A stretch of DNA of 64,000 nucleotides from Desulfocapsa sp. (GTDB lineage: Bacteria > Desulfobacterota > Desulfobulbia > Desulfobulbales > Desulfocapsaceae), in NCBI GenBank assembly GCA_030145625.1, contig JAQYVF010000016.1, positions 1-64,000 on the forward strand, given 5' to 3'. A program made the position numbers and the translations under genes. Numbering within the stretch: the first letter of the stretch is position 1; every line of letters starts with the position of its first letter. Below, in pieces: positions 42,674-62,783 of the stretch. Under the pieces are notes generated by a model. It did no database searches and had not been told where the DNA came from. It saw only the letters and a list, made by a program, of their open reading frames with translations.

Positions 42674-43895
42674 ATCACAGCGAATGCTTCAGGGACATCC
42701 TTCCACACTTGGAGCAATCCTTCTCATCTTTCTCTTCAGCCTCCTTCCACTCTCCGGCCAGGCCAAAGAACACTCCGACCTGCAAAAGCATGTCATTCAC
42801 GGCGGTTATGCCCTGAGCAAAAACGGCCACATTACTATCTCAAAGGATCAAGAGAAAACCTTTATCCCTGCCTCCACCATTAAACTCATCACCAGTCTGG
42901 CCGCCTTGAAGATTCTTGGCCCGGATTATCGTTTCACCACTAGTATTTTTCTTGATGAAGAGCAAAATCTCTATATTCTCGGCTCCGGAGATCCCTTTCT
43001 GGTCTCTGAAAAAGTCACCTCCATTGCCAAATCAGTGGCAGATTTGGGGATAACTGAGATAGGAGATATTATTCTCGACGATTCACACTTCACCCTGGAA
43101 GGTGACGCTGATGGTTCCGCAAATTCAAAAAACCCTTATGACGCCAACTGTTCCGCTCTGGGAGTCAACTTTAACACCCTGCCCCTGCTTGTTACCCGCA
43201 ACGCAAAAGTGAGATCCCCGGAACCCCAAACCCCCTTCCTGCCACTTATGGGAAGAATCGGTAAAACTCTGAAGAGTGGTCGTCACCGAGTAAATATCAA
43301 TGCCTTCCCTGACCAAGGCGCACTCTCCAATACACTTCGCTATTGTGGTGAACTCTTCCAGGTGACACTCCAGCAGCAAGGTGTTAAAATGACAGGTATA
43401 ATCAGACAGGGTAAAATTCCTCCCGAAACACCCTTACTCTTACAATATGTTGCTCAGGAAACGGTTACCGACCTGGTGCGTTCCTGCCTGCTCTCTTCCA
43501 ACAATTTCATGGCCAACCAGCTCTACCTTGCTATTGGTATTGCTAAATACGGCGTCCCTGCAACCTGGGAAAAAAGTCAGAAGGCGGTCAATGCTTTTAT
43601 CCGTAACCAGTTACATCTCCAAGAAATGCAAGTCACCATGGTCGAAGGATCAGGCTTATCTCAAAAAAATCGCATCAGTCCGGAGGCCATGATCCAGGTC
43701 CTTGAAAACTTCAAACCCTATGCATCTCTTCTCCCAAAAAAATACGGGGTCCGCATGAAATCCGGAACCCTAACCGATGTGTACTGTTATGCCGGTTATT
43801 TCAAAAGGGGGCAAACCTTGAATCCTTTCGTTATCCTTCTTAACCAAAAAACAAATCAGAGAGATCGAGTATTAAACACCCTTTACCGCTTGTAA
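42669..43895 (+). CDS. dacB: D-alanyl-D-alanine carboxypeptidase/endopeptidase (PBP4 type)
   Basis: 408 aa from ATG 42669; a longer frame runs back into trpB but is not homologous. Signal peptide ends near LSGQAKEH. The three active-site motifs are present: S69-TIK (SxxK), S277-NN (SxN) and K364-SG (KTG equivalent). The family cleaves D-Ala-D-Ala ends or cross-links of peptidoglycan in the periplasm. It is somewhat shorter than E. coli DacB, with a reduced insert between SxxK and SxN. It lies 56 bases after trpB. Confidence 0.85.
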   Translation: MRSQRMLQGHPSTLGAILLIFLFSLLPLSGQAKEHSDLQKHVIHGGYALSKNGHITISKDQEKTFIPASTIKLITSLAALKILGPDYRFTTSIFLDEEQNLYILGSGDPFLVSEKVTSIAKSVADLGITEIGDIILDDSHFTLEGDADGSANSKNPYDANCSALGVNFNTLPLLVTRNAKVRSPEPQTPFLPLMGRIGKTLKSGRHRVNINAFPDQGALSNTLRYCGELFQVTLQQQGVKMTGIIRQGKIPPETPLLLQYVAQETVTDLVRSCLLSSNNFMANQLYLAIGIAKYGVPATWEKSQKAVNAFIRNQLHLQEMQVTMVEGSGLSQKNRISPEAMIQVLENFKPYASLLPKKYGVRMKSGTLTDVYCYAGYFKRGQTLNPFVILLNQKTNQRDRVLNTLYRL

Positions 43896-44306
43896 CTGGC
43901 CTCTTAAAGAAAAACAGTTGCAAATTTTATTGACAAGCAAAGAATTTTTCTTCCAACTACATGGATGATTCTTCTTCTCTTTTTCATTTAAGCGACAGGA
44001 AAACACCTCCCCTTCTTCCACCTAACCAATTGAATTAAATGCAATTAAAGGATAAAATGTTATACTGCCACATTGTTGTTTTCATTTTAGATTATCTTTT
44101 TTGAGGAAAGGTATGCTATAATTTTTTTGCACCACATGATTGATAACACTATTTCAATTCCCCATACAAATTCAAGGATCTACCAAAACTCATTATTGCT
44201 GGCATAGATCATGCTAACAAAACAGACATATGCTCTGTTGGCCTGCAAAAGTGCTATCGGACAACGTTATCCAAAGACAATTTTTTAGATCTAGAGGAGA
44301 GTAAGT
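43896..44306. other. Intergenic region with putative promoter of the rhodanese gene
   Basis: 410 AT-rich bases. TGCTATAAT (44114-44122) is an extended -10 box; a second possible promoter is TTGAAT (44032) with TAAAAT 17 bases later. The leader would be about 180 bases. CTAGAGGAG at 44290-44298 is a good ribosome site for the ATG at 44307. No gene is seen. Confidence 0.4.
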
Positions 44307-45644
44307 ATGAAGAGAACCATGACCCGATTCATTCCTTTTATCATCATGGCATCATTCTTGGTGACGGGATGTAATCATAATACCAAATCAACCACGAGTG
44401 CTGCCAAGCCTGCAGTAAGCACCGAGGCTAAAAAACCTAAAGGACCGGTATATAAAGGGAAAGTCGTAGGAAAGTCAAACAAAGCCAAGCAAATTTCCAT
44501 TGCTGTGGGTAAAGGCAAAAAAGCCAAAACCGTCATGGTCAGTTTCGACGACAAAACCAAGGGTCTCGAACATGCTGCCAAAGGACATGGCGCCATTATA
44601 GCCTACGAGATGCGTGATGGTGTTCCTTTTGCCACCGTAATCAAACCCAAACTTGCCAAACTGCCTCCCGGTGTCACAGTTATCCCTCCGGCCGAGGTAA
44701 ATACTCTGATCAACAGCGACAAAGACTTTCTGCTGGTTGATTCACGTCCAGGCAGCCGATACTCCGCCTCCCACCTTCCCGGTGCTGTTTCAATCCCTGT
44801 TTGTGAGATGCAGGAACTCCTGCAAAATCTGCCAAAAGACAAAGATAAGCTCCTCATCTTTTACTGTGGAGGGCCCACATGAGGCATGAGCCCCAAGTCC
44901 GCCGGTCAGGCGGTCAAAGCTGGTTATAAAAATATTCGTGTTATGCTTTCAGGCGAGCCTGCCTGGATCAAGGCAGGGTATCCGACCTATGCAAACTATG
45001 GTTGGGTCTGCCGCGGAAATATCGTTCTCATTGATCTGCGCTCCGCTGAAAAAGATGCCGCATCCCGTATTCCTCGATCGGTAAGCATTCCTTTTGCCGA
45101 ATTTGCAGACAACTACGATGACATTCCCATCAAGGCACCTGTGGTCCTCTACTCTGACAATGACAAAGAGACCGCTGCCGCTCAGAAGATCCTCTTAGAT
45201 AATGGCTACAAAAAAGTTTCTAGGGTAGAGGGTGGTTTCCTCGGTTGGAAACGGCTCGGTGGCAATTTAACAAAAGGACCGGTAGTCACCGATGTCCGCT
45301 GGAAAAGAATCCTCGCCGAGGGTGAAGTCTCTGTGGCAGAGTTTGAAAAAGCCCTGGCTGATCCAAAAGAGGCGACCATTCTCGATGTCAGGACCAGAGC
45401 TGAAGTCGCCGAAGGAAAATTTCCGAATTCTCAGCATATTCCTCTCGACGAACTCTGTAAGGACATGGACCAGTTCGTCTGTAAAATCCAAGATTTACAA
45501 AAAGATGAGAAGATTTACATCCATTGCACTACTGGTGCCAGAGCGGAGATGGCCTACAACGAACTGAAAAAGCGCGATTTCAATGCCTTTTTTCTGGTGG
45601 CCGAAGTGGAATGCGAAGGTGATGATTGCACCATAGAAGAATAA
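44307..45644 (+). CDS. Triple-rhodanese lipoprotein, predicted selenoprotein (Sec192)
   Basis: 445 residues if TGA 44880-44882 is read as selenocysteine; otherwise two frames (44307-44882 and 44886-45644) in the same phase. The N-terminus is a lipoprotein signal (SFLVTGC), followed by a Lys-rich linker and three rhodanese domains. Domain 1 (about 125-220) has the active loop C187-GGPT-U192-GMSPKSA; the strand before (LLVDSRPGSRYSASHLPGAV) and the helix after (AGQAVKAGYKNIRVMLSGEP) show that homology runs across the TGA. Domain 2 (about 235-315) lacks a catalytic Cys (LYSDNDKE). Domain 3 (about 350-435) has CTTGAR at 407-412. It probably handles sulfur or selenium sulfane groups in the periplasm. 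A nonsense mutation or sequencing error is the alternative, but the SECIS-like hairpin argues for Sec. Confidence 0.8.
44880..44913 (+). promoter_or_regulatory. In-frame UGA with SECIS-like hairpin
   Basis: TGA at 44880-44882 is followed after 16 bases by CCGCC (44899-44903), loop GGTCA (44904-44908) and GGCGG (44909-44913). The loop begins with GG, as required for SelB binding in known bacterial SECIS elements, and closely resembles the GGUCU loop of E. coli fdhF. The loop starts 21 bases after the UGA, within the usual range. Confidence 0.7.
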
Positions 45645-45981
45645 TTTTCCCTCCTTCCTGAGTTTTCTCAAGGAGAGGAACTTCCTCAAGTGGAAGAGCT
45701 GTGCAACCACACATCTCTTCCACTTTTTTTTACCCTTTTTTACTTCTACACATACACGCCGCAATCCCCCCGCGCTCTTTTTTCAATTTCACCACACCTA
45801 GCCAAGAATACTCATTCTTCTTTACTTATCACAACGATGTGGATACCATTACAAGACTCCAATGCGTAGTAGGTTAGCAGCTGAACTCATCAATACCATC
45901 AATTTCTCAAAATAGAGGAACAGCTAACGGCAACTCACGTATAAGTATCAGTATAACCAAAGTACAAGACAGGACAAATAC
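45645..45981. other. Intergenic region after the rhodanese gene
   Basis: 337 bases. It holds the terminator at 45688-45731. The rest, up to the DUF342 gene, shows no gene and no clear promoter. Confidence 0.4.
45688..45731 (+). terminator. Rho-independent terminator of the rhodanese gene
   Basis: AAGTGGAAGAG (45688-45698) pairs with CTCTTCCACTT, followed by a run of eight T. It lies 44 bases after the TAA at 45644, which supports the second frame being the true gene end. Confidence 0.85.
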
Positions 45982-47733
45982 ATGGAAAAGGGCAACGAAG
46001 AGCCAGCAAAGGGGAAAAAATATTTAGAGCCCACTCTTCATTTTATTAGAAAGCGGCTACTTATTGGTGAAGGTGACACCGCAGAAAAAATTATCATTTC
46101 AGAACTGGTCAAGAAAGATCAGGCTCTCCTCTCCTTTGCGGATTTCGAGGAATATGCAGAAAAGGGATTTGAAAAAAGCCCGGTCAGATCAGGCAGCAAC
46201 ACCCATTTTTCAGATGATGAGAACACACTGTTTGCCGACATCATTGGCTACCCCAGGATAGATATCATGGATCCGGAAGAGGGCGATGAACCAATCCTTT
46301 TGGTTTCACTTATTCCCCTGGTCAGGGTTTCACTCGATAAAATGCAGGCCACCCTTATCCTTCACCCTCCAATCCCAGACTGTTTTTCTACCCAAAGCGT
46401 ACCACTTCCAGAGTTACTCCAGGAAGCAGGCATCCTTTATGGCATCGACCAATCATCTCTTAATCATGCGCAGAAGATTATTCAAGAAGGTTATAACGAT
46501 TTTCTTGACCTTCCCATAGCACTTGGCATACCGTCTGGACCAGGTTCCGATGCCTATCTCCGCTTTGAGCTCGAAATAGGTCCCATTGCCGGACGTATCC
46601 TGGACGACGACACTATTGATTTCCGAGAGCGGAGAATCATGATCGGTGTACGCGAAGGCCAGCTCCTGGCCACCAAAATACCAGCAGTATCCGGAACTCC
46701 CGGAGTCAATGTTCTGGGTCAGGAAATTGAGCCGGAGGGTGGAAAAGACATCAAGGTCAAGGTAGCAAATGATGCTGTCTTTTCTGAAGAAAGCGGAGAG
46801 GCAAGAGCCACAAAAGACGGCATTCTCACAGTAGTCAAAGATTCTGTTATCAAGGTCTCTTCCAAACATGAGGTTCCCGGAGATGTGGATTTCAAGACTG
46901 GTCATATCAATTCCCCAAACTGTGTGACTATCCGTGGTTCAGTACAGCCAGGTTTTACAGTGAGCACCGGAGGTGACCTTGCAATTGGAAAAGAGGTGAT
47001 GTCCGCTACTATCTCCTCCGAGGGAAACATGGTGATCAAAGGTGGCATTACCGGAAAAAAAACCACGATCAAGGCCCTTGGAGATATAGATATCAACTTC
47101 ATCGAACATGGAAAAATCGATTCTGGAGGAACTGTTGTCATACGAAAACAGACCTATTACAGCAATGTCTCAGCAGCAGGCGATATCCGCTGTCGACCAG
47201 GAACAAATGTCGTTGGAGGCAGCCTGGTGGCCGGTGGACAACTGAGTGTGGCAAACGTGGGATCAGAAAACTGCGAGCCCGCCCTCCTTGCCGCAGGCGT
47301 TGATATCGAGCGACTTAACTTGTTGGAAGAATTAAAACAGAGCATTCAACAGCAGCAAGATGATATTATCCAGTGGCTACAGCGTTATGGGGGCAACAGC
47401 CGCTCTAAGAAAATTCGAAAAATGGAAGCCAAAGTGGATGAAACCAAAATGAAACGGCTCAAACTGAACCTCATCCCGGGAACAGGACTTTTATCCCGTG
47501 TCGGCCCCTCCACAGAAGCTCCGACAGTCGAAAATGATGATCAAGAGGTTGGAACAAGGGCACTCAGCATCGACAAAATCCATATTGACGTCTCAGGGAC
47601 TATTTTCGCGGGAACAGAGGTCAGAATCGGGAACCGCAGTCTGGTGTTAACCAAAAATGTCAGCAATCGACGCTTTAAACTGAAACAGAACCTCAAACAG
47701 ATCATTGCCGCACCCTTAAAAGGAAAACACTGA
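45982..47733 (+). CDS. DUF342/FapA-family protein
   Basis: 583 aa. The centre and C-terminal half match FapA (DUF342): ISVREGQLLATKIPAVSG-type segment (IGVREGQLLATKIPA), PGVNVLGQEI, then a beta-helix stack (VTIRGSVQPGFTVSTGGDLA, GNMVIKGGITGKK, ALGDIDINFIEHGKI) and a coiled coil (about 455-500). The N-terminal 190 residues are less typical. FapA-like proteins are cytoplasmic scaffolds with poorly known function, linked to polymer and cell-envelope regulation in other bacteria. No operon partner is evident. Confidence 0.8.
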   Translation: MEKGNEEPAKGKKYLEPTLHFIRKRLLIGEGDTAEKIIISELVKKDQALLSFADFEEYAEKGFEKSPVRSGSNTHFSDDENTLFADIIGYPRIDIMDPEEGDEPILLVSLIPLVRVSLDKMQATLILHPPIPDCFSTQSVPLPELLQEAGILYGIDQSSLNHAQKIIQEGYNDFLDLPIALGIPSGPGSDAYLRFELEIGPIAGRILDDDTIDFRERRIMIGVREGQLLATKIPAVSGTPGVNVLGQEIEPEGGKDIKVKVANDAVFSEESGEARATKDGILTVVKDSVIKVSSKHEVPGDVDFKTGHINSPNCVTIRGSVQPGFTVSTGGDLAIGKEVMSATISSEGNMVIKGGITGKKTTIKALGDIDINFIEHGKIDSGGTVVIRKQTYYSNVSAAGDIRCRPGTNVVGGSLVAGGQLSVANVGSENCEPALLAAGVDIERLNLLEELKQSIQQQQDDIIQWLQRYGGNSRSKKIRKMEAKVDETKMKRLKLNLIPGTGLLSRVGPSTEAPTVENDDQEVGTRALSIDKIHIDVSGTIFAGTEVRIGNRSLVLTKNVSNRRFKLKQNLKQIIAAPLKGKH

Positions 47734-59508: not shown

Positions 59509-60421
59509 GTTAAGTGCAATAACCTTTCTTGGTACAGCCATCTTATTGGGAGCACTTGTTCTTACTGGTTTTCGCCAGAACATCCTGATGAGTGACTACA
59601 GTGAGATTGTAAAAGAAAGTGAAAGCACCATCTTTCTCTACGCAACTATACGTGAGCAAGTCACAGAAGGTCTTTTATCCCGTGATGCGACAAAGCTCTT
59701 GAGCGCAGCAAAGGAATTTCAGCAACTTCATGGCAGGTACACATCCATGCTGGACAACCATCTTATTCCCAGTCAATACAAACTCTCCTTTTTACAAGAG
59801 CTTGACCTGGAACAGGTTGTTATCGACCTGAGGAATCTGGCGGAGAATCCTGCCAATGAGAATTTAATTCTGAAGACGATCAGTCAGCTTCGCCAGATTA
59901 ACAAACAATTCCTGCAATTTGACAGAATCGTAGTCAATGAAATGAGAAATAAGGTGATGCAGTATCAGAAAAGAGGCCTTGTCTTGATGGGGCTGATTAT
60001 CCTTCTAACCTGTTCCACCTTGATCATACTATACCTAAAATCTGTCAACCCACTGATTAAGCTCGCCACACAAGCAGAAAAGGCCCTGCCGGACGGCCCC
60101 CCCCTTCAACTGGAAAATGAAAAAAAATACAGTGTTGAAGTGAAATCCCTGATCGCTTCTTTTAATCAATTACTCCAAAAACCCACAGAGACGAGTTCCG
60201 GCAGCCTGACACATTCCCGGAGAGAGGCGGAGTTTTCTGCAATTGTTAATGAAGTTACAAACAGGCTTAACGGTATCATCAACTACTCACAACTGCTGGC
60301 AGATTACTGCGAAACAGAAAAAGTTGCTGATGAGCAAAAGCAGATACTCTACAAAATAATTGAGAACGGAGAAAAGAGTGCCATAATTCTCCAAAAAGGT
60401 CTACATGGAGGAGATGTATGA
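59492..60421 (+). CDS. Membrane protein with degenerate histidine-kinase (DHp) domain
   Basis: 309 aa. Helices at about 8-26 and 160-182 enclose a helical periplasmic domain of about 130 residues. A HAMP-like stretch and a HisKA-like segment follow (EFSAIVNEVTNRLNGIINYS). The phosphoacceptor His position reads Asn (VNEV) and no ATPase domain follows, so it cannot act as a normal kinase. It could pass a periplasmic signal to the soluble kinase at 53419 by forming a complex. The gene overlaps ftsH by 17 bases and the cytochrome gene by 4, so it is part of the operon. AGGGGAAG precedes the ATG. Confidence 0.75.
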   Translation: MRSLRKLSAITFLGTAILLGALVLTGFRQNILMSDYSEIVKESESTIFLYATIREQVTEGLLSRDATKLLSAAKEFQQLHGRYTSMLDNHLIPSQYKLSFLQELDLEQVVIDLRNLAENPANENLILKTISQLRQINKQFLQFDRIVVNEMRNKVMQYQKRGLVLMGLIILLTCSTLIILYLKSVNPLIKLATQAEKALPDGPPLQLENEKKYSVEVKSLIASFNQLLQKPTETSSGSLTHSRREAEFSAIVNEVTNRLNGIINYSQLLADYCETEKVADEQKQILYKIIENGEKSAIILQKGLHGGDV

Positions 60422-61881
60422 CGGATTCAGAACCGAAAGAAGGAGATGTGAAAGAAACAGATATTCAACAGACTGAAGAGGGTAAAGAGCACGGCACCTG
60501 GGAAAGATTGCTAGGGTGTACGTGGAAGACACCACTCGGTTTTTTTGGAGTTGGTCTGACCACCATTTCCATCACCTTAATCGTTCTCGGTCTCATTGGA
60601 CACCTCTCCGGTTTAATCGCTAACCATTATTTTGCAATTTTCACCTTTCTATTTCTACCGGCAGTAATGATGTTCGGCCTGTGTCTCATCCCGATGTCCT
60701 GTTATTTTCGACGAAAAAAGTGGTTTAAGGATAGCCTGATCAATTCCGAACATTTGAAAATTGATCTTGCTGACAAACATCATAGAAAAGGGATCGTGTT
60801 GTTTCTGGTCCTCTCGGTTATCAACGTTACAGTTCTCATTCTTGTGGTCTATGAAGGATACCATTTCACAGACTCTTCCTATTTTTGCGGAGTAGTTTGT
60901 CATGAGGTTATGGATCCTGAGTATACTGCTTACCAAAGATCACCGCATGCGAAGGTTTCCTGTGTAGCATGTCACATAGGACCTGGCGCCAGTTGGTACG
61001 TCCAGGCAAAACTCTCTGGTTTGCGCCAGGTCAAAGCTGTAATCGACGGGAACTTCAGTCGCCCCATCCCTGCACCAGTGGAGCACCTGAGACCAGCAAG
61101 GGATACCTGTGAGTCCTGTCATTGGCCTGAAAAATTTCATGGAAAAAAAATAAAAGAATTTATCAGTTTCAGCAATGGCAATCAGTCTGATCCTGAAATT
61201 CAAGAAGTCGCCTTGCGTATTGGCGGTCGTAATCCGGTCACGGACGAATTTGAAGGAATTCACTGGCATGTAAGCCGTGACATCAAAGTCGAGTATCAGG
61301 CCCTTGATGAAAAACGCACAAAAATAGGCAATGTCAAAGTTACCAGGCCTGGAGGAATCACAGAAGAATACTCACTTGATGACAATACCCCTGAGGAAGG
61401 AGTAAGTCTGAAATGGCGAACCATGGACTGTATCGATTGTCACAATCGCCCTACCCATGTCTATGACGAGCTTGAACAGATTATCGACTTTGGACTCTAT
61501 TCCAAAAAACTTACTCCCGAGATAGAGGGCATGCGAGAGGACAGCATAACTCTCTTGAAAAGAGAGTACACAAGCAGAGATGAAGCCACAGAAAAAATAG
61601 TGGAGGATCTGCTGGAGATCATGGCCAAACGTCATGGGAATGACTTCGTGGCAGAGCACGAAAAAGAGATACTTGGATCAGGATCATTTCTTTTGGAAGC
61701 TTATCTGAACAATGTCTGGCCACGAATGAAAGTGACGTGGGGAACCTATCGTCAACACATTGGCCACCAAATTTCAGATGAAGGGTATGGATGTTTTCGC
61801 TGTCATGATGACGAACACGAAACAAAATTCGGCAAATTTATCAGACAAGATTGTGACATATGCCACGAAGAACCCGAATAG
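60418..61881 (+). CDS. Six-heme NapC/NirT-like membrane cytochrome c
   Basis: 487 aa. Three membrane helices in the first 165 residues (near 40-66, 72-95 and 123-148) are followed by a periplasmic heme domain. Heme motifs: CGVVCH (157, CX3CH), CVACH (182), CESCH (231), CIDCH (338), CFRCH (459) and CDICH (479). The start of the heme domain (CHEVMDPEYTAYQRSPHAKV) is of the NapC/NirT kind that takes electrons from menaquinol. It is followed by ferredoxin and NrfD genes, resembling Cbc-type quinone oxidoreductases of Geobacter. Likely role: electron exchange between the quinone pool and a periplasmic partner. Confidence 0.88.
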   Translation: MTDSEPKEGDVKETDIQQTEEGKEHGTWERLLGCTWKTPLGFFGVGLTTISITLIVLGLIGHLSGLIANHYFAIFTFLFLPAVMMFGLCLIPMSCYFRRKKWFKDSLINSEHLKIDLADKHHRKGIVLFLVLSVINVTVLILVVYEGYHFTDSSYFCGVVCHEVMDPEYTAYQRSPHAKVSCVACHIGPGASWYVQAKLSGLRQVKAVIDGNFSRPIPAPVEHLRPARDTCESCHWPEKFHGKKIKEFISFSNGNQSDPEIQEVALRIGGRNPVTDEFEGIHWHVSRDIKVEYQALDEKRTKIGNVKVTRPGGITEEYSLDDNTPEEGVSLKWRTMDCIDCHNRPTHVYDELEQIIDFGLYSKKLTPEIEGMREDSITLLKREYTSRDEATEKIVEDLLEIMAKRHGNDFVAEHEKEILGSGSFLLEAYLNNVWPRMKVTWGTYRQHIGHQISDEGYGCFRCHDDEHETKFGKFIRQDCDICHEEPE

Positions 61882-61889
61882 AAAGTAAA

Positions 61890-61940
61890 AGTTCACCAGT
61901 ACCGCACCTGTGTTTTAAACAGGTAGGGTGCTGGTGAACT
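61890..61940 (+). promoter_or_regulatory. Long hairpin between the cytochrome and ferredoxin genes
   Basis: AGTTCACCAG (61890-61899) pairs perfectly with CTGGTGAACT (61931-61940), and inner bases CACCTG pair with CAGGT-GGTG with small bulges. There is no T-run after it. It lies inside the operon and could be an RNA-processing site that sets different levels for the two halves. Confidence 0.5.
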
Positions 61941-62018
61941 CTTACAGCCTATTTTGGTGTGCTGTGCGTGGAAAAATAGCTCAAAAATCGGAAAGAGATG
62001 TTTTTTAGGGAGAATGGA

Positions 62019-62783
62019 ATGAAAATCAAAGATCTGGAAAAGCTAAACGATGAGGGTGTAGAGAGTCTTTCCTCAAAAGAACGCCGTCGTTTTCTACAAT
62101 TCGGCCTTTCCATAACAGGCGTGTTTTTAGGCGGGACGATTCTTTCTTTGACTTCTGCCCCCAAGGTACAAGGTGCCTTGAGTAGCGGCAATGTACCAAT
62201 GACCGATTTCCCCTATAGTCCTCATTATACAATGGTCATTCGTCAAAACCATTGTATTGATTGTGAGCGTTGTCTGGATGCATGCCGCAGTACCAATAAC
62301 GTCCCTGCCCATGGCTATCGGACAACCATATTGGAGCGCAGCGTCCCAATTGCCCAGAAGGAGCAGAGAGAACGCATTTTCATGCCTATCCTTTGCAATC
62401 ACTGTAATCGTCCGGCCTGTGTACGTGTCTGTCCTACCCGAGCCACCTATAAAGATACAACAACCGGTATTGTACTCATGAATCCTGACAAGTGCATTGG
62501 CTGCAAGACCTGTATGGCTGCCTGTCCGTACAATGCCAGATATTTTGATGAAGGGAAAAGGGCTATTGATAAGTGCAATTTCTGTTACGACACAAAGCTT
62601 AAAGAGAGTGGAGGGAAGATTACGGCCTGTGCTGCAGCCTGTCCTGCCAATGTCCGTATTTTTGGAGACCTCACCGATCCGGAGAGTGCCGCCTATAAGT
62701 TGATCCATGCTCCTGAAAAGGTGGTTTGGGTGCTTCGCCCGGAAACAGGTACCCTGCCAAATGTCTTTTATATGAATTCCTAA
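62019..62783 (+). CDS. Tat-exported 4Fe-4S ferredoxin subunit (NrfC/PhsB-like)
   Basis: 254 aa from ATG 62019, with AGGGAG (62007-62012) in place; ATG 61998 is the alternative. A twin-arginine-type signal (ERRRFLQFGLSITGVFLGG) leads to a protein with four cysteine clusters: CIDCERCLDAC, CNHCNRPACVRVC, CIGCKTCMAAC and CNFC with CAAAC. These give four 4Fe-4S centres as in NrfC, PhsB and HybA. It should pass electrons between the cytochrome and the NrfD subunit at the periplasmic face. Confidence 0.92.
   Translation: MKIKDLEKLNDEGVESLSSKERRRFLQFGLSITGVFLGGTILSLTSAPKVQGALSSGNVPMTDFPYSPHYTMVIRQNHCIDCERCLDACRSTNNVPAHGYRTTILERSVPIAQKEQRERIFMPILCNHCNRPACVRVCPTRATYKDTTTGIVLMNPDKCIGCKTCMAACPYNARYFDEGKRAIDKCNFCYDTKLKESGGKITACAAACPANVRIFGDLTDPESAAYKLIHAPEKVVWVLRPETGTLPNVFYMNS

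Follow-up and report, generated by a model that had tools for sequence, protein, structure and literature searches.

A gene at 44307..45644 of the window (the whole 64,000-nt stretch of Desulfocapsa sp. DNA under analysis) almost certainly encodes a selenoprotein. It reads as one frame of 445 residues, from the ATG at 44307 to the TAA that ends at 45644, with a single in-frame TGA (44880..44882, codon 192) read as selenocysteine (Sec) in the active-site loop of the first of three rhodanese domains of a predicted lipoprotein. The exchange between TGA and Cys codons at this position in relatives, a SECIS hairpin, the presence of the Sec machinery and the selection acting on the gene all agree on this assignment, and we regard Sec at codon 192 as being as well supported as sequence allows. 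All features described below lie on the + strand.

The gene and its flanking signals

The initial annotation had described two frames in the same phase, joined by TGA at the rhodanese active loop, and this is what we find. In the mechanical listing of open reading frames (ORFs) the gene appears as two ORFs, one of 191 and one of 252 aa; the translated frame runs FYC187GGPT-TGA-GMSPKSA through the loop. A Pfam search with the joined frame yields three rhodanese stretches (PF00581, 133.2 bits, cut-off 22.2). The likely ribosome-binding site, from reading the sequence, is AGAGGAG at 44293..44299, 7 nt upstream of the ATG. As had also been claimed, a terminator lies only after the second frame, where a strong rho-independent hairpin with a U run is found at 45688..45731 (−21.5 kcal/mol, fold z −7.2). 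A simple scan of the + strand from 43800 to 46100 returned no terminator-like sites, so this hairpin is missing from its output as well, probably owing to the loop-size limit of the scan. The promoter scan gave five sites, against 4.0 in shuffled sequences, and the five Rfam matches all fell under their respective gathering scores.

Codon 192 in related genes

A scan of named genome contigs detected 11 relatives (59–88% identity), and all 11 have TGA at codon 192. They align over nearly the whole gene, the shortest match covering query residues 30–445, which bears out the earlier observation that homology continues on both sides of the TGA. In a profile search of 257 genomes from the class of the window organism, a match with an E-value of 1e-40 or better was found in 168. 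These gave 149 distinct places (30 loci and 120 stretches, with one place present twice), a number that leaves out at least the second match in genome G112 and weaker, unlisted matches; codon 192 is TGA in 116 of them, TGC in 23 and TGT in 10. A search of 395 genomes of the phylum added 20 loci, 19 with TGA and one with TGT; 18 of the 19 share only the phylum with the window organism and one (L199) belongs to the same order. Over the 169 places thus defined (149 from the class and 20 from the phylum; loci L214–L251 are not among them, and L216–L250 serve only as examples), codon 192 is TGA in 135, TGC or TGT in 34 and nothing else. The initial annotation had proposed to look for Cys at position 192 in homologues and had named an assembly error or a strain-specific mutation as the way in which the reading could fail; Cys is present in all 34 non-TGA places, and a codon shared by 135 places is neither an error nor a strain-specific change. 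A paralogue in the same genome (L013) has a shorter loop, with a profile gap at position 192 and an adjoining Cys.

In comparison with the two closest named relatives, purifying selection is about as strong upstream of the TGA as downstream: dN/dS is 0.143 before the codon and 0.140 after it with L001, and 0.111 and 0.119 with L002. The nine other comparisons are partly saturated.

A tree was also built from an alignment of 168 rows (L013 plus 133 Sec and 34 Cys) stripped of the loop and SECIS columns. The method was a quick one, SH-aLRT is the sole measure of support, and long branches are flagged. At least 17 changes between Sec and Cys are required on this tree, 12 of which are forced by starred branches. 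The root was not inferred, so the tree gives no direction for these changes.

The SECIS hairpin

The SECIS-like hairpin that the initial annotation had placed after the TGA is present. In the window it is formed by CCGCC-GGUCA-GGCGG at 44899..44913 (stem 44899–44903/44909–44913, loop GGUCA), begins 16 nt past the TGA and carries a loop G at 44905. With the T of the TGA numbered 1, all 135 TGA places have the pairs 21–33, 22–32, 23–31 and 24–30, a five-base loop and G at position 26. Among the 34 Cys places the stem is found in seven, and the stem together with G26 in two.

Pairs 21–33 and 24–30 connect third codon positions and hence are not dictated by the protein alone. When codons were redrawn synonymously 1000 times according to the codon usage of the family itself, the randomised TGA places formed a mean of 14.9 and a maximum of 26 stems of 135 (135 observed). 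The randomised Cys places formed a mean of 2.7 and a maximum of eight stems of 34, so that the seven observed are also high; this excess fits the possibility that some Cys places carry decayed SECIS elements. Paired changes on both sides of the stem are seen at the wobble positions of the 135 Sec places: pair 21–33 is CG in 127, GC in five and AU, UA and UG in one each, and pair 24–30 is CG in 133 and AU in two.

The sequence CGCCGGTCNGGCG is present in 109 of the 116 TGA places of the class, compared with none of the 33 Cys places. A gene of the Cys form, listed as both L065 and L067, keeps CGCCGGTCAGGCAA, a decayed hairpin, and is sister to a TGA gene, L107 (SH-aLRT 99), a pattern that fits a recent change from Sec to Cys.

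By energy alone the window hairpin is modest. The 46-nt SECIS stretch folds with a z of −1.07 (matched by 32 of 200 shuffles) and the 19-nt hairpin with a z of −2.48 (matched by seven of 200). It is the comparison across relatives that gives the strong evidence.

Sec machinery

Genes selA, selB, selC and selD, which had been proposed as a check, are represented in the genome. It contains selB (374 bits, above the cut-off), selA (491 bits over positions 124–454 of 455, the match beginning at a contig end that cuts the gene), two selD genes above the cut-off and a tRNA-Sec (73.4 bits, anticodon tca). These two selD genes (L025 on contig C120 and L026 on contig C211), which differ from each other, each have an in-frame TGA in the motif GUAAK(L/I)GP, followed by a predicted hairpin. 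On contig C78 of the same genome, a second TGA-containing rhodanese was observed (L015:1501-1803), a small protein with the loop YCAUPNEATSAG, of the CxU type by motif; its 5-bp hairpin with the loop GGUCU lies at the same distance from the TGA as the window hairpin.

In a survey of 62 chosen genomes, SelB was detected above the cut-off in 59, namely in 30 of the 32 with the Sec form and in 29 of the 30 with the Cys form. It was not found in the Sec-form genomes G115 and G176 (rated 98 and 99% complete) or in the Cys-form genome G172 (55% complete). Cys forms thus occur in Sec-capable genomes, and the presence of SelB does not separate the two forms. In G070, one in-frame TGA was seen in three of 13 molybdopterin oxidoreductase matches on contig C1, which are possibly further selenoproteins.

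Other readings of the in-frame TGA

The TGA could be a real stop, with translation restarting at the ATG two codons on and yielding two half proteins. The sequence TGA GGC ATG does offer such a start, the ORF listing shows the corresponding 191 and 252 aa, and Met stands at position 194 in 117 of 133 Sec rows. We nevertheless hold restart to be very improbable: the split would fall inside the active-site loop, Met194 is missing in the other 16 Sec rows (Leu in 13, and Asn, Arg and Phe), it also appears in 13 of 34 Cys rows, where no restart is needed, and a hairpin that is kept at synonymous sites plays no known part in restart. For a recent nonsense mutation, a pseudogene or an assembly error one may cite the other inner stops of a few relatives (one TAG in G101 and one TAA each in G165 and G172, the two TAA codons lying outside the aligned part), but as TGA recurs at this codon in 135 places, including 18 from other classes, and purifying selection is similar on its two sides, the probability of this reading is negligible. 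Smaller still, in our estimate, is the chance that TGA is an ordinary sense codon throughout the organism. Nothing beyond the in-frame TGA speaks for it; of the window's 34 stop-to-stop frames that reach 250 codons, 12 close with TGA (a mechanical, uncurated count), the Sec apparatus is present, and the aligned non-TGA codon is Cys in 34 cases of 34. Sec at codon 192 is the reading that we adopt in what follows.

Domain architecture and active sites

The protein begins with a putative lipoprotein signal peptide (44307..44372) that has the lipobox LVTG-C22; Cys occupies this column in 102 of 167 Sec and Cys rows, and 30 rows have a gap there. An OB-like beta domain is predicted at about residues 45–118 (44439..44660; predicted strands 48–114), with a weak likeness in the structural model to CusF (2vb2, E-value 3.6e-3) and a sub-threshold Pfam match to BipA_C.

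Rhodanese domain 1 (44682..44990; best PF00581 stretch 129–222, and loop alignment) carries the loop Cys187-GGPT-Sec192. Cys187 (44865..44867), at the canonical catalytic position of rhodaneses, is conserved in 131 of 133 Sec rows and in all 34 Cys rows, and Ser195 of the UxxS motif (U-G-M-S) in 119 of 133 Sec rows. Domain 2 (45009..45275) is delimited by Pfam and by a solved-structure match at 235–323, and domain 3 (45315..45599), with the canonical loop HC407TTGAR412, by Pfam and solved-structure matches at 337–431. Of the Sec rows, 131 of 133 have Cys407, as do 33 of 34 Cys rows; Arg412 is invariant (167 of 167). Sec192 lies five residues past Cys187 and, counted from the Cys, takes the same place as the Arg in the domain 3 loop C407-TTGA-R412. 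In the initial annotation the protein was called a triple-rhodanese lipoprotein; the three domains and the lipobox are borne out, but domain 2 has no active-site Cys, since none is found in loop columns 279–292 in any of 168 rows. The protein is therefore likely, as far as conserved residues tell, to have two reactive centres, one Cys/Sec and one conventional.

Two relatives (L172 and L183) keep TGA at position 192 and have Gly in place of Cys187. This suggests that the canonical Cys is dispensable for the action of the chalcogen at 192 and argues against an obligatory Cys/Sec pair.

The AlphaFold model (pLDDT 65.3, pTM 0.43) is too poor for the geometry of Cys187 and Sec192. A fold search with it (Foldseek) gave domain-sized rhodanese matches, 1yt8 first and single-domain rhodaneses, including Sud, lower.

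A heme-type CxxCH motif was observed once in the first half, near the N-terminus, of the more distant Sec relatives L200, L210 and L212; L204 and L207, also with TGA, have CxxxxCH instead. CxxCH is seen as well in L239 and L240 (TGA), in L233–L235 (Cys), in L236 and in the paralogue L013. These motifs suggest, without proving it, that some relatives, perhaps a separate branch of the family, carry heme and trade in electrons in addition to sulfur.

Relation to known selenoproteins and rhodaneses

Selenocysteine-containing rhodaneses have been reported before, as had been stated at the outset: a 2026 review counts, in the passages available, 119 families or subfamilies of prokaryotic selenoproteins and distinguishes five forms of rhodanese among them (UxxS, UxxG, CxU, UxxG and UxxxxU; PMC13188914). 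The U-G-M-S of the window protein fits the motif of form 1 (PF00581, UxxS, WP_010941598.1; Table 1 of PMC13188914). By motif, form 1 could include the window family, whose member here combines a lipobox and an OB-like domain with its three rhodanese domains. Smaller CxxxxU rhodaneses, several of them UxxS, are found in several genomes of the phylum, and it is plausible that these are form 1. A selenoprotein family named ‘sulfurtransferase homologous to a rhodanese-like protein’ is also on record (PMC2398784, PMC5029168), and its line in a 2016 table gives 24 and 25, which we take as organisms and proteins (PMC5029168); the passages hold no sequences, and the likeness to the window protein is by family name only.

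Two of the forms can be compared through their NCBIfam models. The rhodanese region of TsoB (NF045694, form 5, UxxxxU) aligns to domain 1 with an E-value of 1.2e-15 and likewise has two chalcogens five residues apart. In TsoB, however, both are Sec and the protein is a DsbD-like fusion, whereas the window protein is CxxxxU and scores 56.7 bits against a cut-off of 805. The LYCAU rhodanese (NF041203, form 3, CxU) also has Sec in the rhodanese loop, and L015 of the window organism is CxU by motif; here Sec lies two residues past the Cys, not five, and the window protein scores 73.4 against a cut-off of 115. The window protein stays below the cut-off of every NCBIfam model (June 2026), with 21 weak matches. 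In another genome, the gene of a small rhodanese (L244, G113 C1:871052-871730) has two in-frame TGA codons; its YUMGYRU is a UxxxxU loop like that listed for TsoB, but in a short protein.

The best solved relative is 1yt8, a thiosulfate sulfurtransferase of Pseudomonas aeruginosa (4.9e-23 by sequence, 2.2e-10 in the fold search). It has several rhodanese domains in a row, and we know of no Sec or lipid anchor in it. A rhodanese part of the model also resembles Sud (1qxn), the polysulfide-sulfur transferase of Wolinella succinogenes (E-value 2.4e-3). Sud handles polysulfide in the periplasm and is a small homodimer with one rhodanese domain and no known Sec. We think that the window protein may work like Sud, in periplasmic polysulfide handling.

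Two Desulfosediminicola species are credited, in the part of the source available, with 43 and 40 known selenoprotein genes (PMC12013277). The genomes that we take to be these two species carry the gene (L133 and L139), which may already have been counted there under a general rhodanese name. In the literature searched (supplements and most subscription papers lie outside it) no description of a three-domain Sec-rhodanese lipoprotein was found, in keeping with the earlier suggestion that this form may be new. Rhodaneses with Sec were already on record; what did not turn up in that literature is the combination of three domains in a lipoprotein.

Possible mechanism and function

We propose that the gene gives one polypeptide, into which SelB and tRNA-Sec would insert Sec at the UGA, directed by the hairpin. 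The protein would be exported, lipidated on Cys22 and held at the membrane facing the periplasm. One residue of the Cys187/Sec192 pair in domain 1 would accept sulfane sulfur, the donor being a persulfide, polysulfide or thiosulfate. Attack by its partner would form a selenenylsulfide, and sulfide would be released or the sulfur passed on; a periplasmic thiol or cytochrome would then re-reduce the selenenylsulfide. Domain 3 would act as a conventional persulfide-carrying rhodanese and domain 2 would be structural. We consider this account of a Sec lipoprotein with Cys/Sec sulfane-sulfur chemistry, taken as a whole, to be quite probable. For the specific activity, in which sulfane sulfur would be transferred or reduced on the periplasmic side, we see about an even chance.

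The Sec assignment may be right and the protein still serve mainly in redox or thiol stress (disulfide, peroxide, selenite or metal) rather than in sulfur energy metabolism, which we regard as a substantial possibility that falls short of being the favoured one. It draws on the Cys/Sec pair, on the weakly CusF-like N-terminal domain and on the CxxCH of some relatives, and no sulfur-metabolism operon was recognised among the ORFs beside the gene at 31 chosen loci. A possible further parallel, by description, is ExtH, a 49-kDa rhodanese-like protein encoded in a Geobacter cluster whose porin, ExtI, is linked to selenite and tellurite reduction (PMC5877670). Against a stress role stand the two additional rhodanese domains, of which domain 3 has its catalytic loop complete, and the case of Desulfolithobacter dissulfuricans GF1. 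According to the passages available, its rhodanese GF1_13980 was detected only in thiosulfate disproportionation (PMC9751629). In G070, which we take to be this genome, the Sec rhodanese is at 1,559,692-1,561,002, and arithmetic places GF1_13980 at about 1.55–1.58 Mb (from 3,242 CDS over the genome, or from molybdopterin-gene anchors); the next rhodanese matches on either side are at 1,307,771 and 1,646,026. GF1_13980 should accordingly map close to the Sec rhodanese gene and, judging from its numbering, may be that gene, which would lend circumstantial support to a role in sulfane-sulfur transfer or reduction.

A bolder proposal is that the protein is a selenium-dependent periplasmic persulfide/polysulfide reductase or transferase that acts at the as yet unknown step by which thiosulfate or sulfur enters disproportionation in the class, missed because annotation splits the gene and mass spectrometry databases hold only the halves. 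We rate this as rather unlikely. A 2026 survey, as far as its text was available, finds no tie between SseA-type rhodaneses and disproportionation (PMC12998232), and this, together with the lack of a recognised sulfur operon, argues against a direct role. The available text on the D. sulfexigens genome lists two consecutive rhodaneses, UWK_03368 and UWK_03369 (PMC3739170). The rhodanese map of G113, which is no more than a close match to D. sulfexigens, follows the UWK numbers and has the split gene at 3.74 Mb, from which we infer that the two UWK entries belong to it.

The gene is probably annotated as two genes in sulfur disproportionators. Papers on disproportionation and on cable bacteria count rhodaneses and discuss their expression, and the rhodanese passages available from them contain no mention of selenium (PMC3739170, PMC9751629, PMC13047784, PMC12998232); in the main text of the cable-bacteria paper rhodanese occurs 19 times and no word begins with selen (PMC13047784). 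If a common lipoprotein rhodanese is a selenoprotein split in two, then functional models, proteomics and gene counts have to be revised, and the physiology of sulfur cycling gains selenium supply as a variable. The family is of interest because it is widespread in the class, is likely to be annotated as two proteins and offers a natural Sec/Cys series. With at least 12 forced Sec/Cys changes, SelB in 29 of 30 Cys-form genomes and a decayed SECIS beside a Sec sister, it forms a natural experiment in which the benefit of Sec in persulfide chemistry becomes directly testable.

Genomic neighbourhood

By reading, the ORFs flanking the window gene encode a D-Ala-D-Ala carboxypeptidase and a FapA-like protein. 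Close relatives show local synteny, with a carboxypeptidase-like ORF before the gene and a FapA-like or SbcCD-like ORF after it (also by reading, at the 31 chosen loci, of which two are paralogues). Multiheme cytochrome-like ORFs adjoin the gene in L060 (eight CxxCH) and L195 (four CxxCH), with no repeated pattern. Elsewhere in the window, at 60418-62783, the ORF list reads as a gene for a multiheme cytochrome-like protein and, after it, one for a ferredoxin-like iron-sulfur protein.
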